Assembly: GCF_000422885.1 (NCBI RefSeq)
Contig: NZ_AUGX01000011.1
Location: 124,001-188,000 of the forward strand
Source: Ottowia thiooxydans DSM 14619
GTDB lineage: Bacteria > Pseudomonadota > Gammaproteobacteria > Burkholderiales > Burkholderiaceae_C
Direction of reading: 5' to 3'
DNA: 64,000 nt
The first letter of the stretch is position 1. The number at the start of each line of letters is the position of its first letter. Positions 21,457 to 37,254 of this stretch are shown here, one piece after another. Position numbers and translations under genes: made by a program. The notes beneath the pieces are model-generated. The model was not told where the DNA came from. It did no database searches and worked only from the letters and a program-made list of their open reading frames with translations.

Positions 21457-23148
21457 ATGGAAATTGTTGAAATGATTGAAAAGTCCAAGGCTGCTGAAGA
21501 GAGCCCAGCGCCAGAGGTTGATGTCGATGCCCTGATTGTCGGTGCCGGTTTTGCAGGCTTGCTGGCCCTCTATAAGTTGAGGCAAGCCGGATTCACTGTA
21601 CTTGCGCTGGAAGCCTCGGAGAGTATTGGGGGCGTATGGAATTGGAATCGTTACCCCGGCGCGAGATGCGATGTTGAAAGCATGCAGTATTCGTACTCGT
21701 TTTCAGAGGAGCTTCAGCAAACGTGGGAATGGAGTGAACGCTATGCCACCCAACCCGAGATCTTGCGCTATATAGAACACGTGGCTGATCGATTCGATCT
21801 GAACCGGCATATTCAGCTCAACACCAGAGTCGTCTCGGCTACCTACCAGGCGCATGAAAACGCCTGGCAAATTCAAACGAACGAAGGCCAAGAAATCAGG
21901 GCCCGTTTCTGCATCATGGCGACCGGTTGCCTGTCCGCCGCCAGAATGCCAGAGTTTCCTGGCAAGGAAAAATTCAAGGGCGACATCCTGCATACCGGCC
22001 ATTGGCCCAAGTCTGGATACGACTTCACCGGTAAAAATGTCGCAGTCATAGGTACCGGTTCGTCTGGCATTCAGGCCATTCCCATGATTGCCAAGACTGC
22101 CAACAGTCTGACAGTGCTGCAACGCACGGCTACCTACAGTGTCCCCGCGAGAAATCGCATGCTGGATGAAACTGAAAAGAGGGCGTGGAAGGAAAATTAC
22201 GCTCAGCTACGAGAGACAGCTCGGTACGCGCCATCGGGAACTCTCTACGAGTTTGGCGAGAGGAAGGCAGAAGAGACGCCGCTCCAGGATCAAACGGACG
22301 AGTTCGAAAAGCGATGGGCAAAGGGTGGGCCCGGGTTTCTGCGTGCGTTCAGCGACATATCTTCCAGTCAGATCGCCAACAAAGCCGCAGGGGATTTCAT
22401 CCGCGCCAAGATTGCCGACATCGTGAAGGATCCTGAGAAACGAAGCTTGCTCACACCGGCGACCACGTTGCCTGTTGGATCAAAAAGAATCTGCGTCGAT
22501 ACGGGTTACTTCGAAACCTTCAACCGCGAAAACGTAGATCTCATTGATATCCGCAATGACCCGATCAAGGGCATTGAAGAGAACGGCCTCTCGACAAAGA
22601 AGAGAAAGCTCGACCTTGACTGCATTGTTTTTGCCACGGGGTTCGATGTGATTGTGGGCTCGTTGATGAAAATTGACATCAAGGGCCTTGCGGGAAGAAC
22701 ACTCAGGGAGAAGTGGAAGAACGGGCCGGGAACCTACCTGGGTCTGATGGTAGCGGGATTCCCCAATTTATTTCTGGTAACCGGGCCGGGCAGCCCATCC
22801 GTATTGACCAACATGATGGTCTCTATTGAGCAGCATATCGAATGGATCACGGCTTGCGTGGAGTCCATGCGGCGACAAGGAAATGACTACATTGATCCAG
22901 ACGAAGCGGCAGAGTCCAAGTGGATGGACGATGCGAATAGTCTCGCGGAGACCATGCCATTCTTGCGTGCCAACTCCTGGTACATGGCGTCGCCTGAAAG
23001 CGGCTCGTCGCCCAGGAGATTCATGCTCTATTCCGGCGGTGTCGGTAAATATCGTGAAATCTGTGAGCAAGTCGCCCAGCAAAACTACCCTGGCTTCAAC
23101 ATTGGTGCCCGGCATGTCGTCTGTGATGTCCCCGCGGAGCTGTCGTGA
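21457..23148 (+). CDS. Type I Baeyer-Villiger monooxygenase (flavin-containing)
   Basis: The 563-residue protein has an N-terminal FAD-binding GAGFAG (about residues 29-34), an NADPH-binding GTGSSG (about 199-204) and, between them, the BVMO fingerprint FKGDILHTGHWP (about 173-184). That fingerprint distinguishes BVMOs from simple N-hydroxylating relatives. A segment WNWNRYPGARCDVES is typical of cyclohexanone and phenylacetone monooxygenases. It inserts oxygen next to a ketone to form an ester or lactone. The next gene overlaps it by 4 bases. A cyclic or aryl ketone is the likely substrate. Confidence 0.94.
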   Translation: MEIVEMIEKSKAAEESPAPEVDVDALIVGAGFAGLLALYKLRQAGFTVLALEASESIGGVWNWNRYPGARCDVESMQYSYSFSEELQQTWEWSERYATQPEILRYIEHVADRFDLNRHIQLNTRVVSATYQAHENAWQIQTNEGQEIRARFCIMATGCLSAARMPEFPGKEKFKGDILHTGHWPKSGYDFTGKNVAVIGTGSSGIQAIPMIAKTANSLTVLQRTATYSVPARNRMLDETEKRAWKENYAQLRETARYAPSGTLYEFGERKAEETPLQDQTDEFEKRWAKGGPGFLRAFSDISSSQIANKAAGDFIRAKIADIVKDPEKRSLLTPATTLPVGSKRICVDTGYFETFNRENVDLIDIRNDPIKGIEENGLSTKKRKLDLDCIVFATGFDVIVGSLMKIDIKGLAGRTLREKWKNGPGTYLGLMVAGFPNLFLVTGPGSPSVLTNMMVSIEQHIEWITACVESMRRQGNDYIDPDEAAESKWMDDANSLAETMPFLRANSWYMASPESGSSPRRFMLYSGGVGKYREICEQVAQQNYPGFNIGARHVVCDVPAELS

Positions 23149-23939
23149 GCCTTGCCATGAACCCTATGAATACGGACTCATTTGCCGGCAAGCATGTGTT
23201 GATCACAGGTTCAGTCGGTGGAATCGGGCACGCGACTGCCGAAAGGTTTGATGCGCTCGGTGCCACCCTGATTCTGATGGATCAGGATGAGCAGGGGTTG
23301 ATGAAACAAGCTCAAACCTTGAGGGCGCCTGCTGCCTATTACGCTTTTGACATTGCAGATGAAAATCGCCTGGATGCTGCTTTCGCCGACATCAACACCA
23401 GATTCGGTCGGTTGGACGCCGCATTTTTGAATGCGGGAACGGTGGGCAAGGTGTCGCCCATCGTAGATCAGTCCCTGGATACCTTTGATCGGGTGATGGC
23501 GGTCAATCTCAGGAGCGTCTTTGTTTGCCTGAAGCATTCTATGCGCATCATGCAAGCAGGCGCTGGGGGCTCCATTGTGATTACCTCGTCCACTGGTGGG
23601 GTGCGGGGGAGCGTTGGCTTGTCGCCCTATGTGGCAAGCAAACATGCAGTCATAGGCTTGATGAAAAGTGCCGCTTTGGAGGGCGCCAAGCACGGGATTC
23701 GCGTGAACACCGTCAACCCGGGAACCATAGACACCGCGATGATCCGGGAGATTGAGGAAAACTCTGGCGTGGCTTCAGACATCCGGGCGAGAAACGTCTC
23801 TGGAATTCCGCTCAAACGATATGGTTCTCCAGCCGAGGTGGCTCAGTTGGTGACGTTCCTGGCCAGTGACCAAGCCTCGTTTATCACCGGTGCCAGCTAT
23901 CTCATTGACGGTGGTGTGATGGCCGGTAGAAGCCCTTGA
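23145..23939 (+). CDS. Short-chain dehydrogenase/reductase
   Basis: The 264-residue protein probably starts at GTG 23145, which overlaps the monooxygenase stop by 4 bases and has GGAG five bases upstream. An ATG at 23157 is the alternative. It has VLITGSVGGIGHAT, an LNAG motif, TSSTGG with the catalytic serine and YVASK. It is the second SDR of the cassette. Together with the first it may handle the alcohol/ketone step before, or the hydroxyacid step after, the monooxygenase. Confidence 0.92.
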   Translation: MSLAMNPMNTDSFAGKHVLITGSVGGIGHATAERFDALGATLILMDQDEQGLMKQAQTLRAPAAYYAFDIADENRLDAAFADINTRFGRLDAAFLNAGTVGKVSPIVDQSLDTFDRVMAVNLRSVFVCLKHSMRIMQAGAGGSIVITSSTGGVRGSVGLSPYVASKHAVIGLMKSAALEGAKHGIRVNTVNPGTIDTAMIREIEENSGVASDIRARNVSGIPLKRYGSPAEVAQLVTFLASDQASFITGASYLIDGGVMAGRSP

Positions 23940-23998
23940 GCGGTTTGGTTGACCTCAACGCGTGGTTTACGTTCCCTTTCCATTCAAGCTCATTCAAG

Positions 23999-24547
23999 AT
24001 GAAAATCGATCCACTCGCCACAGGCATTCAGCAGGTTTGTATGGTCGTCGAAAATTGTGACGAAACGATCAGGAATTTTGTAGAAAAATCGGGGATTGGG
24101 CCTTGGGCGGTATGGACCTATGGCCCGCACAATTTGAGCAATATGCGGGTCAGGGGTGTTGAAACGCCTTACAGCATGCGGCTGGCGATCGCGTGGACTA
24201 AAGGGTTTAGGTGGGAGGTCATCCAGCCGCTGGAAGGCAGGTCCATCTACCGCGAATTTCTGGAAGAGCATGGTGAAGGTGTCCACCACGTCTTGATTGA
24301 TTACGATGGCCGGGATTTCGATGCTGCGGTGGAGGAGTTCCGCAAGAGAGGCTGTCCTCCCTTGATGGAAGGGCGAATGAAGGAGCGGGATATTGACTTC
24401 GTTTACGTGCAGACCGATGGCCCGCTGAAGGTGGTGATGGAGTTGAGCCGCCACGGACCAGGCTCCAAAAGGGTCCCGCCTGACTATTGGTTTCCTTATC
24501 CCTTGCCCGATTTCCCATCTGAGCCAGTCAGACGTCTGGGTGCATAG
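23999..24547 (+). CDS. VOC-superfamily (glyoxalase-like) protein
   Basis: From the ATG at 23999, the protein has 182 residues. An in-frame TTG at 23936 overlaps the SDR stop but the extra residues do not look like the family. The start, GIQQVCMVVENCDETIRNF, and the later GVHHVLIDYDGRDFDAAVEE match the two halves of a VOC fold, with His in both. Relatives include methylmalonyl-CoA epimerase-like proteins and ring-cleaving enzymes. It ends the BVMO cassette. Its exact reaction is unknown. Confidence 0.85.
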   Translation: MKIDPLATGIQQVCMVVENCDETIRNFVEKSGIGPWAVWTYGPHNLSNMRVRGVETPYSMRLAIAWTKGFRWEVIQPLEGRSIYREFLEEHGEGVHHVLIDYDGRDFDAAVEEFRKRGCPPLMEGRMKERDIDFVYVQTDGPLKVVMELSRHGPGSKRVPPDYWFPYPLPDFPSEPVRRLGA

Positions 24548-24618: not shown

Positions 24619-25464
24619 CTACATCACGCGTGGCTCTTCAACAGCCTGCCACAGGCCCCGCACATAGCCGCTGCTGAACGCAGCGCACGCCTCGGGAGAG
24701 GGGTAAAAATCAAAGGGTTCGATCGACACCCAGCCCGCATAGCCCCCATCGCGCAAGGCTTGCAGCACCGGTGCGACCGACGTGTCTCCCTGACCGGGAC
24801 CACGCCGATTGCGGTCATTCAACTGCACATGGGCAATGTGCCCTAGCGCCAGATGGTGTCGCAGTACTTGCTCGGGTGCTTGCGCCTCTGCTTGCTCGCT
24901 GGCGCCCAGATCAAGCATGGTGCGCAGTGCGGGCGAGCCTACGGCATCTACGATGGCGGCGGCCTGTGCCAGTGTGTTGACCACTGGGGTGGTGGCTGGT
25001 GCCAGTGGCTCGATGCAATAGATCAAGCCTGCGGTGCTCGCGCGTTCAGCCAGTGAAGCCCACAGATCTGCTGCGCGCGCGGTTGCATCGTCCACCGACT
25101 GACCGGGCTCGGGTGCTCGCTGGCGCGGTGATCCATGCACCAGCACTTGCGCACCGCATGCGGCACCTATCTCAATCATGCGTTCCAGAAAGCCAAAAGT
25201 GCGGCGGCGCACCTGTTCATTGGTGGTGGTGATCGACATGCCTTCCGGACGCGCTAGCAGCCAGTGCAAGCCGCAGATCAGCAGTCCGTGATCGGCCGCC
25301 GTTCGGGCCCATGCTTGCGCGGTGGCGGGCTCGATAGTCGCTGGATCGGGCGCCAGGGTGAAAGGCGCAATCTCCAGGCCTTGGTAACCCAACGAAGCGG
25401 CCAGCGCGCATTGTTGCTCGAAGGGCAGATGGGCCAGCACTTCGTTGCAAATCGCGAGCTTCAT
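24619..25464 (-). CDS. Sugar phosphate isomerase/epimerase-like TIM-barrel protein
   Basis: The 281-residue protein (ATG 25464) belongs to the xylose-isomerase-like TIM-barrel family: MKLAICNEV, SLGYQGLEIAPF near residues 28-40, CGLHWLL, and the C-terminal GYAGWVSIEPF. Metal-binding acidic residues typical of the family are plausible (CIEPLAP, MLDLGA, SIEPF). The start overlaps the amidase stop by 4 bases (ATGA). It is the last gene of a leftward operon with the amidase and enolase-superfamily genes. Members isomerise or epimerise small hydroxy or keto acids; the substrate here is not known. Confidence 0.9.
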   Translation of the reverse strand: MKLAICNEVLAHLPFEQQCALAASLGYQGLEIAPFTLAPDPATIEPATAQAWARTAADHGLLICGLHWLLARPEGMSITTTNEQVRRRTFGFLERMIEIGAACGAQVLVHGSPRQRAPEPGQSVDDATARAADLWASLAERASTAGLIYCIEPLAPATTPVVNTLAQAAAIVDAVGSPALRTMLDLGASEQAEAQAPEQVLRHHLALGHIAHVQLNDRNRRGPGQGDTSVAPVLQALRDGGYAGWVSIEPFDFYPSPEACAAFSSGYVRGLWQAVEEPRVM

Positions 25465-26891
25465 GCAACCCACCCAGCGGGGCGTGCCTGACGCCAGGGG
25501 CGTGCACGTTCAAACCCGCGTGCAGTTTGAAGCACCAGCAGATCGGCGTGGGCCGGACCCACGATCTGCAGGCCCACGGGCAGGCCTGCGCGAGTGAAAC
25601 CACAGGGCACGCTGGCCGCAGGTTGTCGTGTGAAATTAAAGGGCGAAGTGAAGGGGTACCACTCGGGGGAGTCCGCGTAGCCGGGCGGCTGGCTCAGCTC
25701 GGCCGAAAAAGGTGCCACCGCCACCGTCGGTGTGAGCAGCAAATCGTAGGACTGATGAAACGCGTTCATGCGCGCGCCAAAAGCCGCGCGCTGCGTTTCG
25801 ATCGCGAGATGATCCGTCACTGACACCGTGTTCCGGCTGTGCCGGATAGTGCGCACTATGCGCTCGTCCATCAGCGACAGGCGGTCTTCGTCGAACGACT
25901 GGAATGCGAAATGGGTCAGCGCGTCCTTGAAACGTTCGATCAGGGGGAGGGGATTTTCGAACACGGTGTCTACCGTGATGACTTGCGCGCCCAGTTCACG
26001 GAACACCGAGGCGGCCCGCTCACACATGGCTTGAACCTCGGGGTCTACTCGCGCATAGCCCAGCGTGGGACTCCACGCTACGCGAAGTCCATCGAGTGGA
26101 CGTTCTAGCGACGTGTGATATGGCACCGGGTCGTGGGGGAGGGCACTCCAGTCACGTGGATCGGCTTCGCTGACCACGGTCATCATCAGCGCTGCGTCTT
26201 CTACGGTGCGGCTCATCGGGCCGATGCTGGCCAAGCTGGCGTAGGGGGTTGGCGGGTAGGCGGGTACACGGCCCCCGCTGGGCTTGAAACCGAAAACGCC
26301 GCAAAAACTGGAAGGCACCCGGATGGATCCTCCCGCATCAGTCGCCACGGCCAATGGTCCGATGCCCGCCGCCACAGCGGCTCCTGCGCCACCGCTGCTT
26401 CCACCTGGCGTGTACCCAGAGCCCCAAGGGCTGCGTGTGACACCAGTCAGCGGGCTGCGCGTCACTGCGCCTACAGCGAACTCCGGCGTGGTGGTCTTGC
26501 CGAACAGCACTGCACCATGTTCGCGCAGCCGCGCCACCGAGGGGGCATCCTCCAGCCAAGCTTGCGTTGGAGACACTGTGCGCGAGCCGCGCAGCGTAGG
26601 CCAGTTTTTTGTGAAAACGATGTCTTTAACGGAGACCGGTACGCCATCGAGCAGTCCCATGGGTTCGTTGCGTTGCCATCGTTGTTCGGAGGCTGCTGCA
26701 GCTTCAAGTGCTGCGGGCGCATCCAGCAGGCAAAAAGCATTCAGCGAGGTCTGAGAGCGTTCGGCGCGATCCAGTATGCAGCGCGTCACCTCCACCGGCG
26801 ACAGCCTGTGGGAGCGGTACTGGGCTATCAACTCACCCGCAGACAACCATGGCAGGGCGGCGCTGTCGATGGCACTCGAATCATCGGGCAT
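25461..26891 (-). CDS. Amidase-signature-family hydrolase
   Basis: The 476-residue protein has the amidase signature with the Ser-cisSer-Lys triad: Lys89 (VSVKDIV), Ser165/Ser166 (TPGGSSGGAG) and Ser189 (DAGGSIR). Length and layout are typical. It hydrolyses an amide bond, releasing ammonia or an amine and an acid, in the cytoplasm. No signal peptide is seen. It overlaps the enolase-superfamily gene by 11 bases and the isomerase gene by 4, so the three are translated together. It is the natural entry step if the imported substrate is an amide. Confidence 0.94.
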   Translation of the reverse strand: MPDDSSAIDSAALPWLSAGELIAQYRSHRLSPVEVTRCILDRAERSQTSLNAFCLLDAPAALEAAAASEQRWQRNEPMGLLDGVPVSVKDIVFTKNWPTLRGSRTVSPTQAWLEDAPSVARLREHGAVLFGKTTTPEFAVGAVTRSPLTGVTRSPWGSGYTPGGSSGGAGAAVAAGIGPLAVATDAGGSIRVPSSFCGVFGFKPSGGRVPAYPPTPYASLASIGPMSRTVEDAALMMTVVSEADPRDWSALPHDPVPYHTSLERPLDGLRVAWSPTLGYARVDPEVQAMCERAASVFRELGAQVITVDTVFENPLPLIERFKDALTHFAFQSFDEDRLSLMDERIVRTIRHSRNTVSVTDHLAIETQRAAFGARMNAFHQSYDLLLTPTVAVAPFSAELSQPPGYADSPEWYPFTSPFNFTRQPAASVPCGFTRAGLPVGLQIVGPAHADLLVLQTARGFERARPWRQARPAGWVA

Positions 26892-28356
26892 GGGTTTCTT
26901 TCAGGATATCGGGCCAACGAGAAGGGGGTGACGGTGGGAGCTTGTCCCAATCTGGCTCGGCGGCGCAGGCAAAGCCAGAGCAGTCCAGAGAGCTCAGCTG
27001 CACCACCCCTCCGCTCAGATTCAATCGCGCGACGTGCTCACCGTTGGGCAGAGTGTCGAACCGATAGAGATCAGGGTGGGCTTGCACGAAGCGGCGCTGT
27101 TCTGCTTCAGGGCGCCCACGCATGCCATCTACAAAATGGTGGGCGTTCTTTTCTACATGGCCTAGGCCTAATAAGCTCACCAGCGCAAGATCCTGTTGCA
27201 GAGAAATGCCCGGGAGCGTGGTCAGATCCTCGGCCGACATGAAGAGCTTGCCTGGCAAGTCAGCCGCGTTACGCACTTCACAACGAGCCCGGTTGATGAG
27301 CGATTTGTAGAGCCCTTTGCAAATCTTGCTGGACACCCCACGGTAGCCCAATGCAATGGCTGCCGGAAACGCCTGCAAATCTACATCGGACTCGTCGATG
27401 ATCACCGGGCATATGGCGTCTATGGGCTTCACGCTTGACTGCAGGGCCACATGCCGGGCCAAAGGTTGTTCGATCCACAGTAGCGATTGACAGAAGCGAC
27501 GCAGGCCGGGAGCCTTGGACATGGCGGACAAGAATTCCACGACGGGTTCGACGGCATGGAACTGCTCGTTGCCATCAAGAGTCACGTAGTAGGCCTGCGG
27601 CAGGGTGTCCAGCACCGCAGCGATGGCCTCGAGTCGCTCCAGGTCTGGCTTCAATTGCCCGCCGACTTTGATCTTGAAATAGCGCTGCCGGTAGGTCGCG
27701 ACTACGGCCTCCAAGGTTTCCGGGAGGCCATCGTTTACCGCGCTGCCAGGCGCCTGATCAAGAGGCGTGATGGCATCAACCAACCCGACCGTGTGGCGTA
27801 GAAGAAGCTCTCGCTGCGGCGACAAGGTGCTGAGAAAACGACCAAGATCTGTGCCCGCCAGATCGCTCGCCCACTGCGTGGTCTGCATGCCCACCAGATT
27901 GCTCTGCATCAACGCCCAGAACGGCTGGCCTTGCAACTTGCCCAAGGCACCGATGACGCAGCGGTCCAGTAGCGCCGCGCCATAGCCTGCGATCAGTGGC
28001 CCCAGCGAGTGGCGACTGGCCTCTTCGATCAGGCTGCCGTGGGCCGCCATGGCGTGGCCAAACGCGGTGTTCTCCCCTTGGGCGGTGTAGTGCCGCACGG
28101 CGGACTCGATGGCCCAGCGCAATTGGTCGTGGTTGTCGTCGTCAGAGAGGCTGGGATTCTTGTCGAACCACTTCGCGCTCAAAGACTCGGCCGCGCATCC
28201 CCAGGCACTGCGCCCGCCGATTGACACCCGGGCGCGCAGCACCACCTGCCGACCATGGGTTTTGGTGACGCTACCAAAGCGGAAGGGTAAGCGCAGGCGA
28301 TACGGCCACTCCCGTACCTCCACCTCGTGCACGCGCAGCCGGATTTCAGGGTTCAT
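26881..28356 (-). CDS. Enolase-superfamily protein (muconate-lactonizing subgroup)
   Basis: The 491-residue protein shows the full muconate-lactonizing/dipeptide-epimerase set: KIK (Lys228, Lys230) at the second strand, metal ligands in TLDGNE (Asp261), WIEQP (Glu296) and IIDESD (Asp321), and SKICKG (Lys344/347). At 491 residues it is longer than the usual 350-400, with extra sequence before the barrel (about residues 60-120) and at the C-terminus. Such enzymes abstract a proton next to a carboxylate for epimerisation, dehydration or cycloisomerisation. It is the first gene of the leftward operon, just after palindrome 28396-28411. Confidence 0.88.
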   Translation of the reverse strand: MNPEIRLRVHEVEVREWPYRLRLPFRFGSVTKTHGRQVVLRARVSIGGRSAWGCAAESLSAKWFDKNPSLSDDDNHDQLRWAIESAVRHYTAQGENTAFGHAMAAHGSLIEEASRHSLGPLIAGYGAALLDRCVIGALGKLQGQPFWALMQSNLVGMQTTQWASDLAGTDLGRFLSTLSPQRELLLRHTVGLVDAITPLDQAPGSAVNDGLPETLEAVVATYRQRYFKIKVGGQLKPDLERLEAIAAVLDTLPQAYYVTLDGNEQFHAVEPVVEFLSAMSKAPGLRRFCQSLLWIEQPLARHVALQSSVKPIDAICPVIIDESDVDLQAFPAAIALGYRGVSSKICKGLYKSLINRARCEVRNAADLPGKLFMSAEDLTTLPGISLQQDLALVSLLGLGHVEKNAHHFVDGMRGRPEAEQRRFVQAHPDLYRFDTLPNGEHVARLNLSGGVVQLSSLDCSGFACAAEPDWDKLPPSPPSRWPDILKETHAR

Positions 28357-28395: not shown

Positions 28396-28411
28396 TCAAC
28401 CAGATGGTTTC
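28396..28411. promoter_or_regulatory. TetR-type palindromic operator, copy 1
   Basis: TCAACCAGATGGTTTC is close to the 16-base palindrome consensus TCAACYRNNTRGTTGA seen at three more sites in the window. It lies between the divergent enolase-superfamily and TetR genes. A possible -10 box CATAAT for the TetR gene lies at 28432-28437 and the palindrome overlaps the expected -35 position. Confidence 0.55.
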
Positions 28412-28445
28412 TTTTGTGCCGATACTGGCGGCATAATCGCCTTGA

Positions 28446-29123
28446 ATGGCAACCCAACGCAACGTCAAACGCGAACCTTCCGCCCGGCGCACGGTCGACT
28501 CCCGCAAGGCGGATGCCGACCCGGCGTCGGCCAAGAACGCTATCCTCGCTGCCGCGCGGCAGGAGTTCTCGAGCAAGGGCGCCGCTGGCGCCCGGGTCAA
28601 TGAGATTGCAGAGCGCTCCGGGGTTAACAAGCAGCTGATCTATTACTACTTCGGTAATAAGGAAGGTCTCTACGCTGCTGCTCTGGAGGCTGTATACAGC
28701 GACATCCGTGAGCTGGAGAAGAGCCTGCATCTTGAGGAGGAGGAACCTGAATCGGCTATGCGCTCGCTGGTGTCCTTCTCGTTTGACTACCTGGCCCTGC
28801 ACCCCGAATTCATCGGTATGCTCAATCACGAGAACGCGATCGGTGCGCAGCACGTCCAGGCCTCTAAAACCATACAGGGCATGAACTCCCCGCTGATTGA
28901 GCTGATCCGCCTGGCGCTGAAACGCGGTGTGGCCCAGCAGAAGTTTCGCAAGGGAATCGATCCCTTGAACCTCTACATCTCCATTGCGGGGATGTCCTAT
29001 TTCTTTTTCTCCAACCGCGCCACCTTGTCTTCGAACTTCGGACGAGATCTTTCGAGCAAGGAAGTGGAGGAGGCCTACCGCAAGCATGTGGTGGAGTTTG
29101 CGATCGCCGGCTTGAGGCCCTGA
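28446..29123 (+). CDS. TetR/AcrR-family regulator
   Basis: The 225-residue protein has a TetR helix-turn-helix at about residues 33-78: AARQEFSSKGAAGARVNEIAE (cited in part), then GVNKQLIYYYFGNKEGLY. The rest is a ligand-binding domain. It is clearly similar to the second TetR gene at 32061-32711 through the recognition helix and the downstream LYAAALEAVY region. It diverges from the enolase-superfamily operon, with palindrome 1 between. It likely represses that operon and itself. A ligand derived from the imported substrate is inferred. Confidence 0.93.
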   Translation: MATQRNVKREPSARRTVDSRKADADPASAKNAILAAARQEFSSKGAAGARVNEIAERSGVNKQLIYYYFGNKEGLYAAALEAVYSDIRELEKSLHLEEEEPESAMRSLVSFSFDYLALHPEFIGMLNHENAIGAQHVQASKTIQGMNSPLIELIRLALKRGVAQQKFRKGIDPLNLYISIAGMSYFFFSNRATLSSNFGRDLSSKEVEEAYRKHVVEFAIAGLRP

Positions 29124-29152
29124 GAAACTCGGCGCAGCGCTTTGGCTGACCA

Positions 29153-29983
29153 TCACGACACCGTTTGCGGCATGGTTTCCAGGTTCTTCTGGGTCAAGTC
29201 GTTGTAGAGCTCGAGTGTCATGCGGCCCAGCTCGGGCGAGACGCGCGTGGCCACCGTCCGCGGCCGGGGCATCTGCACTGGCTTGATGGAGGCCACACGG
29301 CCTGGACGCGGCGACATCACCACAACCCGGTCTGACAGGAAGCATGCTTCGGGAATCGAATGCGTCACGAAGATCACGGTCTTGCGCTCTGCACCGCCTT
29401 CGTTGATGCGCTGTTCGCCCCAGATGCGCAGTAACTCCAAGTTCATTTCATCGCGCGTCATGGCATCCAGCGCGCCGAAGGGTTCGTCCATCAGCAAGAT
29501 GGGTGGGTCCAGGATCAACGCTCGGCACAGCGAAGCCCGCTGCTGCATGCCTCCAGACAACTCTCCAGGTCGTTTCTTGGCGAAGTCGGCGAGGCCCACG
29601 AGTTTGAGCAGGTCGTGTGCACGGTCGCGGTAGTCGGCCGGCTTCAGCCCGTACAACTCTGTGGGCAGCAGAACGTTGTCCAGAACAGTGCGCCACTTCA
29701 GCATGATGGCAGTCTGAAACACCATGCCGACCTTTGGAATCGGTTTAACCACAGGCGCGCCGTCCACGACGATGCGGCCCCCCGTCACTGGCCGCAGCCC
29801 CGCAATGCACCGCAGCAGTGTGGACTTTCCACAGCCGCTGGGCCCGACCAGTGAAACAAACTCCCCCCGGTTGATCGACAGGTTGATGCCTCGCAGGGCT
29901 TCCACGGGGCCGCTGTCAGCCTGGTAGACCATGTGGACGTCATCGATCTCGATGAAGGGGGACGGGGTGCTCGTGTGGTTCAT
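29153..29983 (-). CDS. ABC transporter ATP-binding protein (SsuB/TauB type)
   Basis: From ATG 29983 the protein has 276 residues. It has Walker A GPSGCGKST (about residues 47-55), the signature LSGGMQQR, Walker B ILLMDEPFGALD and the switch histidine THS. It powers import across the inner membrane, working with the permease and binding protein encoded just upstream. Its start overlaps the binding-protein stop by 4 bases (ATGA). The family serves sulfonates, nitrate, pyrimidines and related small anions or amides. Its stop lies 29 bases from the facing TetR gene end. Confidence 0.94.
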   Translation of the reverse strand: MNHTSTPSPFIEIDDVHMVYQADSGPVEALRGINLSINRGEFVSLVGPSGCGKSTLLRCIAGLRPVTGGRIVVDGAPVVKPIPKVGMVFQTAIMLKWRTVLDNVLLPTELYGLKPADYRDRAHDLLKLVGLADFAKKRPGELSGGMQQRASLCRALILDPPILLMDEPFGALDAMTRDEMNLELLRIWGEQRINEGGAERKTVIFVTHSIPEACFLSDRVVVMSPRPGRVASIKPVQMPRPRTVATRVSPELGRMTLELYNDLTQKNLETMPQTVS

Positions 29984-31014
29984 TTGACGGACAGAGGCAG
30001 CGCAACCTTGGGCAGGAGCTTGTTGGTGTAGACGGTGGTGCAATCAACTTTACGGGCTAGTCCCATGTAGGTGTTGGCGATGTCGGTGGATTCGCACATT
30101 TTCTTTTCGTCTATCCAGCCCAGTCCGTTGTCTTTGTACCGCTGGGTGCGCATGAGGTCGATGCCCATGGCCATGTTGCGACGGACATAAGCCACATCTA
30201 GCTCTGGCACGCGCTTTTTGTAGATCTCCAGCGAAGGCTCACGCTCTGCCATGACATCGCTCCAGCCGGTGTATGCGGCTTGCAGAAACTTACGGATGGC
30301 TTCAGGTCGTTCGGCCAGCGTCTTCTCGCTCACCACGAAAGCCATGCTGTACATGTTGTACCCAAACTTCGCCCAGGGCATTTCCACCACGTCGTCAGCG
30401 CCCATAGCCTTTTCGTAGTTCGGCTTGCCGGTGATGAAGTCGGCCACGCCATCCACGCGCTTGGCAGCGAGCGCCGCTACCTTGGCTGTGGGTTCGATGT
30501 TGATCCAGGTGACCGAGGCAGGGTCAATACCGTTCTTGCGCGCGAACGCAGGCCAAGCCATGCGCTGGCCATCGCCCGGAGGCGCGCCAATTGATTTGCC
30601 GACCATGTCTTTCGGTTCGCGCAATGGTGCGTCCTTACGGCTGAAGATGTTCTGCGGTGTCTCGTCGAAAATCATGCCGACGATCTTCACCTTGGCACCA
30701 CGCGCAATGGCTGCCAGCACCACTGAGGTGTCGGCAATGGCCACATCCGCCCGATCGGTGTCGGCCTTGGCCAGGGCGTCACCCGAACCTTTGGAGTTTT
30801 CGATGGACACGACCAGGCCGTGCTTGTCAAAGTAACCTTTTTCCTGGGCTACGTAATAGGCGCCGTGGTCGCCGGTAGGGAACCAGTTGATCGCGAGCTT
30901 GAGCGGTGTCTTGGCCGTTTGTGCCGCTGCCGATGCACCTATCAAGGGCAAGAGGGATGAAAGGGCCAGTGCTAGCCAACGCATCGTGAACCGGGGTTTG
31001 ACAAGGTCTTTCAA
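29980..31014 (-). CDS. ABC transporter substrate-binding protein (NMT1/SsuA-like)
   Basis: The best start is TTG at 31014: AAGGAG (31020-31025) lies five bases upstream and gives MKDLVKPRFTMRW followed by a hydrophobic signal peptide with cleavage near ASAAAQ. The mature protein starts TPLKLAINWFPTGDHGAYY, the usual beginning of NMT1/THI5 and SsuA-like binding proteins. An in-frame ATG at 30984 (MRWLALALSS) is an alternative. It captures the substrate in the periplasm for the SsuABC-like importer. The ligand is unknown, and its co-regulated genes suggest a nitrogenous acid or amide. Confidence 0.92.
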   Translation of the reverse strand: MKDLVKPRFTMRWLALALSSLLPLIGASAAAQTAKTPLKLAINWFPTGDHGAYYVAQEKGYFDKHGLVVSIENSKGSGDALAKADTDRADVAIADTSVVLAAIARGAKVKIVGMIFDETPQNIFSRKDAPLREPKDMVGKSIGAPPGDGQRMAWPAFARKNGIDPASVTWINIEPTAKVAALAAKRVDGVADFITGKPNYEKAMGADDVVEMPWAKFGYNMYSMAFVVSEKTLAERPEAIRKFLQAAYTGWSDVMAEREPSLEIYKKRVPELDVAYVRRNMAMGIDLMRTQRYKDNGLGWIDEKKMCESTDIANTYMGLARKVDCTTVYTNKLLPKVALPLSVK

Positions 31015-31051
31015 GAGATCTCCTTCGGGGTGGGTTTGGAACGCGAGAAGT

Positions 31052-31822
31052 TCAGCGGCCGCCGTCGATCGCCCAGGGTGCGAGCACACGGGCTAACAGG
31101 GAAACGATGCCAAAGAGGGACAGGCCAATGACTGAGACGAATGCAATGGCAGCAAAGGCCACCGGCGTATTCATGCTGCTTTGCGAAGTGATGATCACGT
31201 AGCCGAGTCCGGCTTGAGAAGCCACAAACTCGCCCAGGATCGCACCCACCACGGCGGAGGTGGCTGTGATCTTGAGCGCACTCAGGATGTACGGATAGGC
31301 ATTGGGAATGCGGATCTTCACGAATACTCGCCACTTGGGCGCGTTGAACACGCGGCCTAGATCAAGCATGTCCTGATCAATCTGGCTCAAGCCTGCAGCG
31401 GTGTTGATCACGACCGAGAAGAAGCCGATCAAGGCGCCTATCAAGAGGTTGGGCACGATGCCGTAGCCGAACCACAGCAGGATGAGTGGGGCGATCGCCA
31501 CCTTGGGCAAGGTGTTGACGAACACTAGGAACGGCATCAATGCGCGCGCTGCGGTGTCGGACCATGCGATGGCGGTGCCCAGCAGAACACCCACTACCGC
31601 CGCCAACATGAAGCCGCCCACCACCTCAGTGGCTGTGACCAGCATATGACGACCCCAAGGGATATCGCTGCTGGTGATGGCGTTCAGTACGGAGGCAGGG
31701 CTTGGCAGGATGTACTCACGCACGCCGAACACGCTCACTACCAACTGCCAGGCCAGGAGCAGGAAAGCGAATATCAAAACGGTGGGCATGTACCGCTTGC
31801 CCATCTTCAACGACCAGTTCAT
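31052..31822 (-). CDS. ABC transporter permease (SsuC/TauC type)
   Basis: The 256-residue protein has about six hydrophobic segments and the cytoplasmic coupling loop GRVFNAPKWRVFVKIRIPNA in the permease position. This is the usual inner-membrane subunit of nitrate/sulfonate/taurine-type importers. It is the first gene of the three-gene leftward importer operon; the binding-protein gene starts 37 bases after its stop. Palindrome 2 and a promoter-like element lie 95-135 bases upstream of its ATG. Confidence 0.94.
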   Translation of the reverse strand: MNWSLKMGKRYMPTVLIFAFLLLAWQLVVSVFGVREYILPSPASVLNAITSSDIPWGRHMLVTATEVVGGFMLAAVVGVLLGTAIAWSDTAARALMPFLVFVNTLPKVAIAPLILLWFGYGIVPNLLIGALIGFFSVVINTAAGLSQIDQDMLDLGRVFNAPKWRVFVKIRIPNAYPYILSALKITATSAVVGAILGEFVASQAGLGYVIITSQSSMNTPVAFAAIAFVSVIGLSLFGIVSLLARVLAPWAIDGGR

Positions 31823-31916
31823 TTGCTTTTCTCCTGTTCGGCTCGTTCAGCTTTTCAGAGGTGGCGCCATGCGACACCCTCAGAAGACCAAGGCTCGTTC
31901 CTCGACCCTGAAAGCC

Positions 31917-31945
31917 AGTTTATGAGGCCGATTATCAAAAGTCAA
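31917..31945 (-). promoter_or_regulatory. Promoter of the ABC importer operon overlapping an operator
   Basis: On the minus strand TTGACT (31945-31940) is followed by exactly 17 bases and TAAACT (31922-31917). The match is five of six at -35 and four of six at -10. The -35 box lies inside palindrome 2, so a bound repressor would block RNA polymerase. Confidence 0.5.
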
Positions 31946-31957
31946 CTATTTAGTTGA
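31942..31957. promoter_or_regulatory. TetR-type palindromic operator, copy 2
   Basis: TCAACTATTTAGTTGA is a perfect 16-base palindrome (arms TCAACTA and TAGTTGA, 2-base centre). It lies between the divergent ABC importer operon and the second TetR gene and overlaps the importer -35 box. It is one of four near-identical sites. Confidence 0.7.
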
Positions 31958-32029
31958 AATTTGGGTCTAGTGGCTTTCCCGGGGGCAAAGCGCTGAACCT
32001 GTTGAGAGAACCGGGGCTAGAATGAAACA

Positions 32030-32045
32030 TCAACTGTATGGTTGA
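32030..32045. promoter_or_regulatory. TetR-type palindromic operator, copy 3
   Basis: TCAACTGTATGGTTGA matches the shared palindrome consensus. It ends 15 bases before the ATG of the second TetR gene (32061). A TAGAAT at 32018-32023 could be the -10 box, which would place the operator over the transcription start. This layout fits autorepression. Confidence 0.65.
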
Positions 32046-32060
32046 TTTTTGAGAGACACC

Positions 32061-32711
32061 ATGAAAATCGATGAACACCTGGGCGCACGAGGTGCGCTCG
32101 TGATGGCGGCGGTCGCGGAGTTCTCCCGCAAGGGATTTGCTGGCGCCCGCGTGGATGAGATCGCCAAGGAAGCAGGCGTCAACAAGCAACTGGTCTACCA
32201 CTACTTCGGGAGCAAGCAGGATCTGTACGAAGCTGCGTTGGAAAAGGTTTACACCGAAATTCGCGACAGGGAGCGCACCTTATCGCTGGATGCGCTGGAG
32301 CCCCGCGAGGCGATGGAGAAGCTGGTTGGATTTTCGTTCGACCACCTGCAACAACACCCCGAGTTCATTGCGCTGCTGGCGGATGAGAACCGCCATTTGG
32401 GCAGTCACGTGAAGACTTCCAAGCGCTTCAGGAAGATGCATTCCCCACTGATCGACATGATGGGCACCACATTGGCGCGTGGGGTGCGCAGCGGGGTCTT
32501 CCGACCCCATAGCGACCCGATCCAGGTCTACATCTCGATTGCCGCCTTGTCCTATTTCTACTTCTCCAACAACCACACGCTGTCAGCCATCTTCAGCAAG
32601 TCTTTGCTTACGCGCGCGGCGTTGGCTGCACGCAGAAGCCATGTGGTCATGTTCGCAATGCACGCCTTGTGCATCGAACCGCTTCACGAGAATTCGAGGA
32701 TCACATGCTGA
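32061..32711 (+). CDS. TetR/AcrR-family regulator
   Basis: From the ATG at 32061 (GAGAG five bases before it) the protein has 216 residues. A TTG twelve bases upstream is a weaker option. The helix-turn-helix has [19 protein letters not shown] and [18 protein letters not shown], very close to the TetR protein at 28446. Both recognise DNA with GVNKQL in the recognition helix, so both may bind the same four palindromes. It overlaps the serine dehydratase gene by 7 bases. It probably regulates the ABC importer, itself and the dehydratase unit. Confidence 0.93.
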
Positions 32712-34069
32712 GCGTGCTGGAGGTATTCAAAATTGGCATTGGTCCTTCCAGTTCCCACACGGTGGGGCCCATGCGCGCTGCTCACCAGTTCGCGCTGGCG
32801 CTTTCCCGCGAGCATGTGTTGATGCAGACGGACCATGTTCGTGTGGAGCTGCACGGCTCTCTCGGTGCTACGGGCAAGGGGCATGGCTCCGGTAAAGCGG
32901 TGCTGTTGGGCCTGGAAGGCGAAGAACCCGATCGTGTGGACACGGGCCGGGTGGATGCACGGATCGAAGAGATCACCCGGGACCAGAAAATCCTTGTCCT
33001 GGGAAAGCACGCGGTGCGGTTCGTGGCTTCTCAGCACCTGACCTACCATCGCAAGTCACTGCCGTTTCATCCCAATGGCATGAAATTCTTTGCCTGCACT
33101 CATGATGGCGAGGTGCTGCTGCAGCGAGACTACTACTCGGTTGGCGGCGGGTTCGTGACCGAAGGCGCTACGCCACACACCATGGCAACCCATGCACCAT
33201 GCCCGTACCCGTTTCGCACTGGCGCCGAGTTGCTGGCGCTGTGCCGACAACTTGGTTCCGGTATCAGCGATCTAGTACGCACTAATGAGGCTGCACTGCG
33301 CGCACCGAAGGACACCCGTCTATCGGTTACCGGGATCTGGGAGGTCATGCAGGCCTGCGTGCGCGCGGGTTGCGCGAATGAAGGTGTTCTACCGGGCCCG
33401 CTCCGGGTGAGACGCCGCGCGCCAGATTTGTGGCGCCAACTCCAAGGTGAAGGCACTTCCAAATCGACCGATGTGCTGGCCGCGCTGGACTGGGTGAGCT
33501 TGTACGCCCTGGCCGTTAACGAAGAGAATGCCGCTGGCGGGCGCGTGGTGACCGCGCCCACCAATGGGGCTGCCGGCATTGTGCCCGCCGTCCTGCATTA
33601 CTACATACGATTCGTACCCGGTGCAGACCTTGAGGGAGTCGAACGATTTTTCTTTACGGCCACGGCCATCGCGCAGTTGTACAAAGAAAACGCTTCTTTG
33701 TCAGGTGCGGAAGTGGGTTGCCAAGGCGAGGTCGGAGTTGCCTGCTCCATGGCGGCCGCAGGGCTGGCGGAGGTGCTTGGTGCATCGCCTGCACAGGTGG
33801 AGAACGCCGCAGAGATCGGCATGGAACACAACCTGGGCCTCACCTGTGACCCGGTGGGTGGGCGGGTCCAGATGCCATGCATTGAGCGCAACTCCATGGG
33901 GGCCGTGAAAGCCATTCACGCCGCCCGCATGGCATTGCGCGGCGATGGTCAGCATTTCGTCTCGCTGGATCAAGTCATCAAGACCATGCGCGAGACCGGC
34001 GCTGACATGAAGACACGATACAAGGAGACCTCCCGAGGAGGTCTCGCGGTCAATGTCATCGAGTGCTGA
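32705..34069 (+). CDS. sdaA: L-serine dehydratase, iron-sulfur type
   Basis: The 454-residue protein is the single-chain, oxygen-sensitive [4Fe-4S] L-serine ammonia-lyase. It has the same length as Escherichia coli SdaA. The start, [25 protein letters not shown] (cited in part), and the cysteine-bearing [16 protein letters not shown] and [18 protein letters not shown] segments are diagnostic. It converts serine to pyruvate and ammonia. It is co-translated with the TetR gene (7-base overlap, GAGGA before the ATG). Its place in a TetR-regulated catabolic unit suggests that serine or a close analogue is released by the pathway. Confidence 0.95.
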
Positions 34070-34122
34070 AGCTGCTCTTCATTTGCTCCGTCATGTGCTC
34101 CAACACACGCCATTCTGAAAAA

Positions 34123-34138
34123 TCAACTATTTGGTTGA
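34123..34138. promoter_or_regulatory. TetR-type palindromic operator, copy 4
   Basis: TCAACTATTTGGTTGA differs from copy 2 by one base. It overlaps the -35 box of the promoter at 34135-34163, so it is placed to repress the epimerase/GNAT/DapA-like operon. Confidence 0.7.
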
Positions 34139-34163
34139 CATCGATGAATGTCGCTTCTATCAT
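34135..34163 (+). promoter_or_regulatory. Sigma-70-type promoter of the epimerase operon
   Basis: A perfect TTGACA (34135-34140), a 17-base spacer and TATCAT (34158-34163, five of six) form a strong promoter. Transcription would start near 34170, ahead of the ATG at 34194. The -35 box shares four bases with operator copy 4. Confidence 0.72.
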
Positions 34164-34193
34164 GCCGACACGTCAGCTTTCTTAGCCATATCC

Positions 34194-35258
34194 ATGAACT
34201 CGAATACCACGTTTTCCGGACCCCTCCTCGACGAGATGCCGTTTCCTGTAGCCTTCGAAAGTGAAGAAGCTCTGGAGAATTACCTGGCTACACCATCGAG
34301 GGCGTTGTTGCGTCATATGGAGGCTGTGGATGGTGACCTCATGATCCTGGGCGTTGGAGGCAAGATGGGCCCCACGCTGGCGCGCCTGGCGCGCAACGCC
34401 ATGCCAGGGCGGCGTGTGATCGCGGTGGCCCGATTCAGCGAGCCGGGTATGCGCGAGTCCTTGGAGTCGCAAGGCATCGAAACCATTGCTTGCGATCTGT
34501 TGGACCCAGCCGCTATCGCCGCGTTGCCCGCATGCCGCAATGTGGTGTTCATGGCCGGTCGCAAGTTCGGTGCCGATGCCAACCACGCGCTGACCTGGGC
34601 TATGAACACTCATGTCCCAGCTATGGTCGCGCAAGCCTTCCCGGCTTCGCGCATCGTGGTGTTCTCCACGGCTTGCGTTTATCCCTTTGTACCGGTCAAC
34701 AGCCAGGGGGCGGGAGAGCAGTTGCCTCCAGACCCGCCCGGTGAGTACGCGAACTCATGCGTTGGTCGAGAGCGCATGTTCGAATACTTCTCTCAGCAAC
34801 ACGGCACCCCGGGGCGCTTGTTCCGGCTGAGCTACGCCATCGATTTGCGCTATGGCGTGCTGGCTGACGTGGCGAACAAGGTTTGGCAGGGCGAGCCCGT
34901 TGATGTGACGATGGGGCACGTCAACGTCATCTGGCAAGGAGATGCGAATGCCCAGGCCTTGCGCTGTCTGGCGGAGGCCACGGTGCCTACCTCACCCATC
35001 AACATCAGCGGCCCGGAGACCACCTCCATCCGTTGGCTCGCAGAGGAATTTGCGCGGCGTTTCAATAAGCCCGCACAGATCACGGGTGAAGAAGCACCTA
35101 CCGCGTGGCTGATGAACACCGGGCAGGCTGAGGGTCTCTTTGGCTACCCTCACGTGCCATTGCAGCGCCAGATCGGCTGGGTTGCGGATTGGGTTTCGCG
35201 CGCACAGCGCTCGTTCGGCAAGCCGACCAAGTTCGAAGCCCGCGATGGCAAATACTGA
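34194..35258 (+). CDS. NAD-dependent epimerase/dehydratase-family protein
   Basis: From the ATG at 34194 the protein has 354 residues. An extended-SDR Rossmann motif reads GVGGKMG (about residues 53-59), with FSTACVYPF and the Tyr of the active site in GEYANSC. The usual YxxxK reads Tyr185 to Cys189, so the catalytic lysine appears missing. It may still bind a nucleotide and act on a sugar or hydroxy acid with altered chemistry. It is the first gene after operator 4 and overlaps the GNAT gene by 14 bases. Confidence 0.88.
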   Translation: MNSNTTFSGPLLDEMPFPVAFESEEALENYLATPSRALLRHMEAVDGDLMILGVGGKMGPTLARLARNAMPGRRVIAVARFSEPGMRESLESQGIETIACDLLDPAAIAALPACRNVVFMAGRKFGADANHALTWAMNTHVPAMVAQAFPASRIVVFSTACVYPFVPVNSQGAGEQLPPDPPGEYANSCVGRERMFEYFSQQHGTPGRLFRLSYAIDLRYGVLADVANKVWQGEPVDVTMGHVNVIWQGDANAQALRCLAEATVPTSPINISGPETTSIRWLAEEFARRFNKPAQITGEEAPTAWLMNTGQAEGLFGYPHVPLQRQIGWVADWVSRAQRSFGKPTKFEARDGKY

Positions 35259-36126
35259 GCCCAACGCGCTGTCAAGCGACCACTTGGCCGAGAGGCTTGC
35301 CGCGTTGACCCCTGGCGATCTCGATATGCTCAACCGCTTGGTAATGGAGAGCCATTGGAATCAGTTGCCCGCTGACTGGCACTTCTTCTTCGAGCATGGT
35401 CATGTGCTGGTGGTGCGTAACGCGGAGTCCCGCATCATCGCCAGCGGTGCGGTGCTACCCATGGACGCCGATACAAATGGCCACCGCGTGGCGTGGATCA
35501 GCATGATCCTGGTCTTGCCGGAGGTTCGTGGGCAGGGCCTGGGACGACGCGTGTTCGAAGCCTGCCTGCGCAGCGCGCAAGCGGCGGACTACTTGCCCAT
35601 GCTTGATGCAACGCCCCAAGGCGAACCGCTGTACACCCAATTCGGTTTTGTGCCGCTCTCGCACATTACTCGGTGGCGGCGTGAAGCGAGAGGTGCTCGC
35701 GCTTCCAGCGCACCTGCGCCGCAGGCAGACTTGGATCAGTTTGTGGCGTTGGATGCCCGTGCGCTGGGCTTTGGCAGGAGCGCGCTGATCAATAGCCTTC
35801 AAGGCCGGCCTACAACGCATTGTGTGAGCAGCTCGCACGGCTTCACGCTGGTTCGCGCGGGCCGCACCGCACATCACATTGGTCCTTTGCTTGCTGAGGA
35901 CGAAGGCCGTGCGCTCGAGTTGCTCCAGCAGGCGGTAGATGCCTTGGAAACCCCCGTACTGATCGATGCACCACAACAACGACCGGTGCTCACAGCGGCT
36001 CTTCAGGCGGCGGGCTTTGTGCCTCAACGTGACTTTACGCGGATGGCCTGGGTTCCGCCCGGGCGAACCTTGCCGCAAGGCCAACCTCATTTCATTCACG
36101 CCATCGCCGGCCCCGAGTTCGCCTGA
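35245..36126 (+). CDS. GNAT-family N-acetyltransferase
   Basis: From the ATG at 35245 the protein has 293 residues. The acetyl-CoA loop VRGQGLGRRVFEACLRSAQ lies near residues 93-111, and the second half resembles another, weaker GNAT domain, so this is a tandem-GNAT type. It acetylates an amine or detoxifies an amino compound. It overlaps the epimerase gene by 14 bases and precedes the DapA-like gene by 60 bases. In this operon it may acylate or protect a nitrogenous intermediate; no substrate can be named. Confidence 0.88.
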   Translation: MANTEPNALSSDHLAERLAALTPGDLDMLNRLVMESHWNQLPADWHFFFEHGHVLVVRNAESRIIASGAVLPMDADTNGHRVAWISMILVLPEVRGQGLGRRVFEACLRSAQAADYLPMLDATPQGEPLYTQFGFVPLSHITRWRREARGARASSAPAPQADLDQFVALDARALGFGRSALINSLQGRPTTHCVSSSHGFTLVRAGRTAHHIGPLLAEDEGRALELLQQAVDALETPVLIDAPQQRPVLTAALQAAGFVPQRDFTRMAWVPPGRTLPQGQPHFIHAIAGPEFA

Positions 36127-36186
36127 CGAGCGAAACATGCCATGCCCGGCCGGCCCCGCGCCCCACTGTGCTCAAGGATTGATGCC

Positions 36187-37254
36187 ATGCCATTGAAACG
36201 CTCCGACCTCCCGACCGCTGTCCTCGATCTGTTGTCGAACGGCACGGTCATTCCAGCCCATCCGCTGGCACTCGATGAAAATCGCGTATTCGATCGTCGC
36301 CGCCAACGTGCGCTGACGCGCTACTACATCGACTCAGGTGTGGGCGGCCTGGCGGTGGGGGTACACACCACTCAGTTTGCCATCCGCGAACGTGGACTGT
36401 ATGAAACGGTGCTGCGTTGCGCCGCAGAAGACCGACAAGCGTGGTCCGATCGTCCGATGGTCATGGTCGCAGGCCTGTGTGGCGACACACCGCAAGCCGT
36501 GGCAGAGGCTCGTACCGCGGTGGGATTGGGCTATCACGCCGGCCTCCTGAGCCTGGCGGCGTTGGCTGACCGCTCCGAAGACGAGCTCATCGCGCACTGT
36601 GAAGCTGTGGCTGAAGAGATGCCTATCGTCGGCTTCTACCTGCAAACGGTGGTGGGTGGGCCCGTGGTCACCAGTGATTTCTGGCGCCGTTTTGCACTCA
36701 TTCCCAACGCACTGGCCATCAAGGTGGCACCGTTCAATCGCTACCGGTCGATGGATGTGGTGCGCGGTGTGGTTGATGCGGGCGCGGAGGATCGCGTCTT
36801 TCTGTATACCGGCAACGATGACCATATCGTTTTAGATCTCACCTTGCCGTTTACGGCGATGCGCAACGGACGCGCCGTCACTGTGCGCTTTAGAGGGGGG
36901 TTGTTGGGGCATTGGTCGGTTTGGACCGCCAGCGCCGTGCAGCAATTTGCCCGCATTCAGCAGGCTTTATCCCAGCAGCCTGATGGCGTGAGCAACGAAC
37001 TTCTGGCACTCGATGCCCGCGTCACCGACTGCAACTCTGCCTTTTTCGACGTAAAAAACAACTTCCATGGTTGCATCGCAGGCTGTCACGAAGTGCTTCG
37101 CCGCCAAGGACTGCTCGAAGGCATCTGGTGCCTGGACCCCGAAGAAGGGCTTGGAAATGGCCAGTTGAATGAAATTGACCGTGTCTACCTTCAGCACGGT
37201 GACCTGAGTGACGACAGCTTTGTTCAGAAAAACCTGGCGCGCTGGTTGACCTGA
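36187..37254 (+). CDS. Dihydrodipicolinate synthase-family (DapA/NanA-like) aldolase or lyase
   Basis: The 355-residue protein has the TIM-barrel family features. The probable Schiff-base lysine is Lys179 in ALAIKVAPFNR, and the catalytic tyrosine is Tyr151 in GFYLQT. It lacks the usual YNxP after the tyrosine, and at 355 residues is longer than typical (about 290-310). Members make or break a C-C bond next to pyruvate, or dehydrate sugar acids. It ends the operon begun at 34194. A pyruvate-linked reaction fits with the serine dehydratase nearby, but that is inference. Confidence 0.88.
   Translation: MPLKRSDLPTAVLDLLSNGTVIPAHPLALDENRVFDRRRQRALTRYYIDSGVGGLAVGVHTTQFAIRERGLYETVLRCAAEDRQAWSDRPMVMVAGLCGDTPQAVAEARTAVGLGYHAGLLSLAALADRSEDELIAHCEAVAEEMPIVGFYLQTVVGGPVVTSDFWRRFALIPNALAIKVAPFNRYRSMDVVRGVVDAGAEDRVFLYTGNDDHIVLDLTLPFTAMRNGRAVTVRFRGGLLGHWSVWTASAVQQFARIQQALSQQPDGVSNELLALDARVTDCNSAFFDVKNNFHGCIAGCHEVLRRQGLLEGIWCLDPEEGLGNGQLNEIDRVYLQHGDLSDDSFVQKNLARWLT

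Follow-up and report, generated by a model that had tools for sequence, protein, structure and literature searches.

A 16-bp palindrome as the probable common operator of two TetR_C_29 repressors in a catabolic gene block of Ottowia thiooxydans

Autoregulated TetR repressors adjoining catabolic genes are a familiar kind of bacterial regulator. Here we analyze a candidate system in a 64,000-bp stretch of the Ottowia thiooxydans DSM 14619 genome (contig NZ_AUGX01000011.1, positions 124,001 to 188,000; hereafter the window), in which two TetR-type regulators, TetR1 and TetR2, lie in a block of enzyme and importer genes together with four copies of a 16-bp palindrome. RutR, BetI and RefZ are among the top-scoring NCBIfam equivalog models for the two regulators. 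They share the TetR_N domain with TetR1 and TetR2, and RutR also regulates catabolic genes, but both proteins score far under the cut-offs of RutR (45.6 for TetR1 and 50.5 for TetR2; cut-off 368), BetI (43.2 and 59.3; 201.3) and RefZ (50.6 and 42.9; 180). The RutR operator, TTGACCA-N2-TGGTCAA, has a half-site unlike TCAAC, the arm of the palindrome described here. RutR regulons have been tabulated across 68 genomes in a compilation in which FabR, FadP, LiuQ, PsrA and RutR are among the regulators labelled TetR (PMC5343134). A study on the IclR family appears to have combined comparative operator discovery with the co-evolution of motifs and their regulators, but for another regulator family (PMC8222616). 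In a literature search with subscription papers and RegPrecise outside its coverage, we found no account of the regulon, the motif or the gene set presented here. As far as found, three things are unreported: the regulon, the sharing of one operator by two regulators brought together by a merger, and the three classes of helix and half-site described below.

TetR1 (225 amino acids, plus strand, 28446–29123) and TetR2 (216 amino acids, plus strand, 32061–32711) both belong to the TetR family by their N-terminal helix-turn-helix and their C-terminal ligand domain. TetR_N (PF00440, cut-off 24) matches them with 58.2 and 59.1 bits and TetR_C_29 (PF17938, cut-off 26.2) with 131.3 and 138.8 bits, respectively. 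The recognition helix of TetR1 reads GVNKQLIYYYF and its NKQL core is kept in TetR2, so that the shared helix motif of the original prediction was recovered. With a probability of about 0.83, we regard the 16-bp palindrome as the operator of NKQL-type TetR_C_29 repressors, through which two merged gene clusters would share one circuit.

All four palindromes on which that prediction was built are present, at 28396, 31942, 32030 and 34123, and all are intergenic by our own gene calls. The consensus TCAACYRNNTRGTTGA is matched exactly by the latter three, whereas the site at 28396 has two mismatches, both at its 3' end; none of the four is assigned a strand. The predicted operator TCAACTATTTAGTTGA (31942–31957) lies upstream of the ABC importer operon and overlaps a predicted minus-strand -35 box. 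TCAACTGTATGGTTGA (32030–32045) is found immediately 5' of TetR2, a position suggestive of autoregulation, and TCAACTATTTGGTTGA (34123–34138) is located upstream of the epimerase-GNAT-DapA-like operon, also overlapping a predicted -35 box. The weak candidate operator TCAACCAGATGGTTTC (28396–28411) sits within the 89-bp gap that separates the divergent enolase-like gene and TetR1 and is identical to the common Bradyrhizobium site TCAACCAGATGGTTGA at 14 of 16 letters. Since many other bacteria have this 16-letter site beside a repressor of the same type, three of the four palindromes are very probably docking sites of the two sister TetR repressors.

Pattern searches of the source genome (draft, 7,046,641 bases, 78 contigs, 99.37% complete) found exact TCAACYRNNTRGTTGA at 31942, 32030 and 34123 only; in its exact form the consensus is thus confined to the block and not scattered elsewhere. 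Matches with at most one mismatch occur at background frequency (26 versus 33 in the backwards control). The exact arms TCAAC-N6-GTTGA occur at six places (12 strand rows versus 30 in the backwards control), three being the block sites and three lying within open reading frames. The latter carry a G at position 6 on one strand, where its frequency is 0.00 in a scoring matrix that we built from 49 distinct sites in other genomes. When this matrix was applied to all 16-mers of the window, the three exact sites ranked first to third (26.4, 25.7 and 24.0 bits), a ranking that favours the arm letters and partly depends on the motif, because the training sites had been chosen by at least 9/10 arm letters.

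The comparative set consisted of the window and 105 loci (L049–L153), in total 106 sources with 2,068,137 bases. In this set, exact TCAAC-N6-GTTGA occurs 86 times, including the three window sites, versus 0 times in the reversed control, and the motif at 9/10 arm letters 95 versus 20 times. Listing perfect 5-N6-5 palindromes with any arm within approximately 400 bp of TetR homologues above 55 bits in the same loci yielded TCAAC 75 times; the runner-up arm had 18 occurrences, mostly on that side of the TetR gene where the substrate-binding protein is encoded. The exact site is present in 74 of the 106 sources. Clusters that we term type B, for example those in Variovorax and Bradyrhizobium, frequently show a pair of sites: one near the TetR start, mostly a 9/10 match, and an exact one after TetR. 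In support of the original prediction, the palindrome recurs near a related regulator and related genes in many genomes. Recurring beside its regulator, and with its exact form confined to the block in the source genome, it appears to behave as a conserved operator of a TetR subfamily. That chance palindromes in intergenic DNA account for this pattern is extremely improbable: 28396 by itself could be one, but for the three exact sites a chance origin was rejected on the basis of the genome scan, the reversed control (86 versus 0) and ranks 1–3 with a matrix from other genomes.

Some relatives depart from the simple arrangement. Two GCNKQL regulators are accompanied by a perfect 20-bp palindrome TCAACCAAC..GTTGGTTGA (L106:7151-7170 and L114:7192-7211), which equals two overlapping 9/10 sites 4 bp apart and might accommodate two stacked dimers or reflect altered spacing. 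In Bradyrhizobium sp. CCGUVB4N an additional exact-arm site, TCAACCGTAAGGTTGA (L135:13237-13252), is located 1.4 kb past the ABC ATPase gene and is possibly a further target.

The half-site tracks the class of the recognition helix. Our table holds 156 distinct related TetRs, from which copies identical in the last 150 residues had been removed first; in an earlier table of 137 TetRs, the same filter dropped 11 copies. An exact TCAAC site lies within approximately 400 bp of 77 of the 86 NKQL proteins, and a site with at most one arm mismatch near 84; of the nine lacking an exact site, seven have a one-mismatch site, and window TetR1 and the L109 protein have neither. Both NKQM proteins are within one mismatch, with no exact site (0/2). 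The 25 NKRL proteins are accompanied by TTCAC (16), GTAAC (2) or TTAAC (1), with no exact site in six cases. Among 23 NKRM proteins, 11 have [G/T]TAAC and 12 no exact site, five of the latter not even within one mismatch. The remaining 20 helices (SKRM, NERM, SERM, VDRM and single cases) show no exact site and two one-mismatch TCAAC sites. Crossing over between the Q and R classes was not seen: exact TTAAC, GTAAC or TTCAC was found in 0/86 NKQL cases and exact TCAAC in 0/48 NKRL or NKRM cases. For seven further NKRL proteins, the TTCAC palindrome is in the locus in six. Repeated co-evolution of helix and operator was considered and rejected. The Q/R change and the change of base 2 each take a single tree step, leaving 1 independent pair, and the correlation therefore amounts to one clade-level switch.

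A second TetR_C_29 subfamily with an NKRL helix, mostly beside a TTCAC-N6-GTGAA palindrome, was noticed in family genomes (L230-L235, L237-L247, L248-L254); few genes of the block are seen alongside in these short loci. Two further TetR relatives of the source genome (G000:C5:129065-129595, L072; G000:C46:25379-25717, L073) carry the helix SVDRM, and no palindrome of the TCAAC kind was found near them.

Overlap of the palindromes with promoters suggests how they could act. On the plus strand, a sigma-70 promoter with 11/12 matches is predicted at 34135–34163; its -35 box TTGACA (34135–34140), followed by a 17-bp spacer and the -10 box TATCAT, shares TTGA with the operator arm. For the ABC operon, a sigma-70 promoter is predicted on the minus strand (31917–31945, 9/12 matches; TTGACT, 17 bp, TAAACT), overlapping operator 31942. 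Taking the operator as -35 element on its better strand, and arms transplanted 60–300 bp within the same loci as control, 73 of the 86 exact sites score at least 8/12 promoter matches versus 6.8% of the controls, and 21 at least 10/12 versus 0.1%, these 86 sites being related loci and not 86 independent cases. A 17-bp spacer is present in 64 of the 73. Because the TTGA at the start of the -35 box usually comes from an operator arm, repression would be explained, most simply by covering of this box. The same overlap could indicate that the palindromes are conserved as -35 promoter elements and not as operators, or that another regulator binds them. We consider this very unlikely, since a -35 box needs no full two-fold symmetry, the half-site follows the TetR helix class with 0/86 and 0/48 exceptions and the exact consensus is found nowhere else in the source genome.

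Binding of the palindrome by both TetRs, rather than by one, is suggested by their phylogeny. In a tree from which the recognition-helix columns had been left out, TetR1 falls into a clade of 11 members (support 97) and TetR2 into one of 18 (support 96); the tree was made by a quick method with Shimodaira–Hasegawa-like approximate likelihood ratio test support only, and both proteins were flagged in a long-branch warning. All 10 other members of the TetR1 clade have exact TCAAC sites. In the TetR2 clade 16 of the 17 others have an exact site within approximately 400 bp, and the remaining member, L082, has one after its serine dehydratase gene, an arrangement also seen in the window. Within the stretches retrieved, the clusters of TetR1 and TetR2 relatives contain a single TetR of this kind, which suggests that either type can work with the operator alone. 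Because separate clades each keep the same site, TetR1 and TetR2 probably both bind it.

It is rather unlikely that TetR2 alone uses the palindromes and that a diverged TetR1 controls the enolase-like operon via another site or not at all. Two exact palindromes, 31942 and 32030, lie upstream of the TetR2 gene, whereas TetR1 has only the weak 28396 site, with its two mismatches and background score, and no exact or one-mismatch site within approximately 400 bp. The end branch of TetR1 is long (0.69), although that of TetR2 is equally so (0.73). TetR1 nevertheless keeps NKQL, and its 10 clade mates all have exact TCAAC sites; both observations count against this alternative.

The block resembles the product of a merger between two types of cluster. 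The window permease and ATPase are 68–75% identical to those of eight TetR1-type clusters (L051-L053, L055-L057, L059, L060) and the binding protein is 56–61% identical to the same-role protein of these clusters, versus 39, 45 and 34% for permease, ATPase and binding protein in the TetR2-type cluster L049. Conversely, epimerase, GNAT and DapA-like proteins share 82, 55 and 80% identity with L049 versus 59–65, 33–38 (where found) and 67–71% with the eight TetR1-type clusters. Such split identities, with the importer close to the TetR1 type and the epimerase, GNAT and DapA-like proteins close to the TetR2-type L049, are expected of a merger. A search with TetR1 matched 67 of 299 family genomes, and nine besides the source genome have two copies. 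In eight of these nine, the second copy belongs to the NKRL class; for G168, the helices of both copies were missed by the search pattern. Two NKQL TetRs in one genome were shown in none other of the 299 family genomes, among the TetR matches for which a locus was returned.

Several points weigh against the proposed common circuit. Thirty-two of the 106 sources lack the exact site. Seventeen of these have no TetR above 100 bits in the fetched stretch and eight carry other helices (3 NKRL, 3 NKRM, 1 NVRM, 1 VDRM), and among the seven with NKQL or NKQM six have a one-mismatch site and L109 has none. The site counts overstate independent support, as the loci are related and many stem from Bradyrhizobium. 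Scanning the block gave 2 promoters versus 1.8 expected by chance, and by itself therefore proves little. At site 32030, neither strand has a suitably spaced -10 box, and this site would more probably act by hindering TetR2 transcription close to where it begins. The palindrome at 28396 ranks fourth in the matrix scan with 11.5 bits, a score reached by 22 of 60 simulated windows. With this site at background, it is its position and not its score that suggests that TetR1 may regulate itself and the enolase-like operon. The prediction of one TetR circuit over the entire block is partly supported: the ABC importer operon, the TetR2-serine dehydratase unit and the epimerase operon each have an exact site in front, while the enolase-like operon and TetR1 have only the background-level 28396. 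That loci without TCAAC lack operators was likewise considered and rejected; in some of them, different half-sites are arranged in the same geometry.

TetR binding, repression and cross-binding, as we infer them, would proceed as follows. In most clusters one TetR dimer would occupy the palindrome, whose GTTGA arm also opens the -35 box (TTGANN, usually 17 bp, then -10), and RNA polymerase would be blocked until a pathway metabolite frees the repressor. In the block, a cluster with TetR1, the ABC importer and the enolase-like genes would have merged with one comprising TetR2, serine dehydratase and the epimerase, GNAT and DapA-like genes. Since the helix is conserved between the two TetRs, we expect either of them to act on the sites of the other. 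The shared circuit would cover the importer operon, TetR2 with serine dehydratase, and the epimerase operon; the degenerate site 28396 could add TetR1 and the enolase-like operon. A more far-reaching version, which we put forward only tentatively and consider somewhat doubtful, combines a code of a widespread TetR_C_29 subfamily, in which a pair of adjacent helix residues would determine the half-site (NKQL, NKRL and NKRM specifying TCAAC, TTCAC and [G/T]TAAC, respectively, in a fixed 16-bp geometry), with a two-repressor AND gate built by the merger: different ligand domains on one operator would mean that full induction requires both inducers. The circuit is ordinary in kind but would be a clear new case in which the code from protein to DNA can be read. 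An uncharacterised catabolic cluster thereby gains a candidate regulator, a candidate operator and a candidate promoter, and its substrate could be searched for by means of a simple reporter. The three classes of helix and half-site form a natural set on which rules of TetR specificity can be tried, and the block with its two repressors offers a testable case of regulation after the merger of two related clusters.

The block had been described as comprising nine genes, a number that our gene calls do not bear out; we count 12. On the minus strand, a xylose-isomerase-like triosephosphate isomerase (TIM) barrel (24619–25473, PF01261), an amidase (25461–26891, PF01425; NF004815 above cut-off) and a 491-amino-acid enolase-superfamily-like protein (26881–28356, assigned by predicted fold) precede TetR1. 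Between TetR1 and TetR2, the ABC importer is encoded on the minus strand by genes for an ATPase (29153–29983, PF00005), an NMT1/SsuA-like substrate-binding protein (29980–31032, PF09084, with the longer open reading frame 29980–31089 as query) and a permease (31052–31822, PF00528). On the plus strand, the start of the L-serine dehydratase gene (32705–34069, TIGR00720 above cut-off) overlaps the TetR2 stop. It is followed on the same strand by genes for an NAD-dependent epimerase/dehydratase-like oxidoreductase (34194–35258, PF01370, query 34131–35258), a GNAT acetyltransferase (35245–36126, PF18014 and PF00583, query 35140–36126), both queries again being longer open reading frames, and the DapA-like protein of 355 amino acids (36187–37254), a divergent aldolase resembling dihydrodipicolinate synthase (DHDPS) and N-acetylneuraminate lyase (NAL) by profile and fold matches to their structures.

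The enolase-like protein has no match in Pfam, NCBIfam or PDB sequences. Its predicted structure (mean predicted local distance difference test score, pLDDT, 90.0) matches mandelate racemase/muconate lactonizing enzymes of the enolase superfamily, but with 12–18% identity in the top 50 and a length of 491 amino acids versus 336–444 in the matched structures. Residues K228, K230, D261, E296, D321, E322 and K344, which we take to have metal-binding or acid-base roles, are invariant across 16 sequences, and the predicted fold together with these residues would place the protein in the enolase superfamily. The DapA-like protein, taken as open reading frame 36142–37254, scores below the Pfam gathering cut-off. 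Its predicted fold (mean pLDDT 80.5) resembles the DHDPS/NAL superfamily with Foldseek E-values down to 2e-13 and template modelling scores by query length of 0.66–0.72 in the top 50, but identity there is 12–20% and the protein is longer (355 versus 288–310 amino acids). K179 and Y151 are invariant in 12 sequences and presumably correspond to the catalytic pair of DHDPS/NAL with its Schiff-base lysine. The epimerase-like protein has only two weak matches among PDB sequences, both to TerB oxidoreductase. Our guess at the pathway is uptake and breakdown of an amide-bearing sugar-acid-like compound, with aldol cleavage by the DapA-like protein yielding pyruvate.

The cluster is found in many Pseudomonadota. 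A DapA-like homologue is present in 24 of the 299 family genomes, including the source genome, and the contig scan gave at least 577 DapA-like relatives, the best 80 of which were kept for neighbourhoods. Many of these 80 loci share a recurrent set of TetR, epimerase-like, GNAT, DapA-like and ABC importer genes, and some add an enolase-like protein, an amidase or a TIM barrel. Serine dehydratase stands beside the set in three of the 80, in Polaromonas (L082), Corticibacter (L084) and Eoetvoesiella (L090). In two annotated alphaproteobacterial plasmids, from Tistrella and Sulfitobacter, the gene order is as in the Variovorax-type clusters. In Paenibacillus, Rhodococcus and Streptomyces plasmids, the DapA-like gene adjoins an oxidoreductase gene, with other transport genes close by; the plasmid annotations are generic product names.

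Both flanks of the block hold further genes, whose likely products are named here by eye from their sequences. Just before it (window 21457–24547) lie genes for a flavin monooxygenase, a short-chain dehydrogenase and a glyoxalase-fold protein, and the sole motif match in this segment, at 23937, has 3 mismatches. After the block, past an AraC-type regulator gene, the segment 38520–43120 contains genes for a GlcF-type iron-sulfur protein, a flavin adenine dinucleotide (FAD) oxidase, a short-chain dehydrogenase and a hydrolase.

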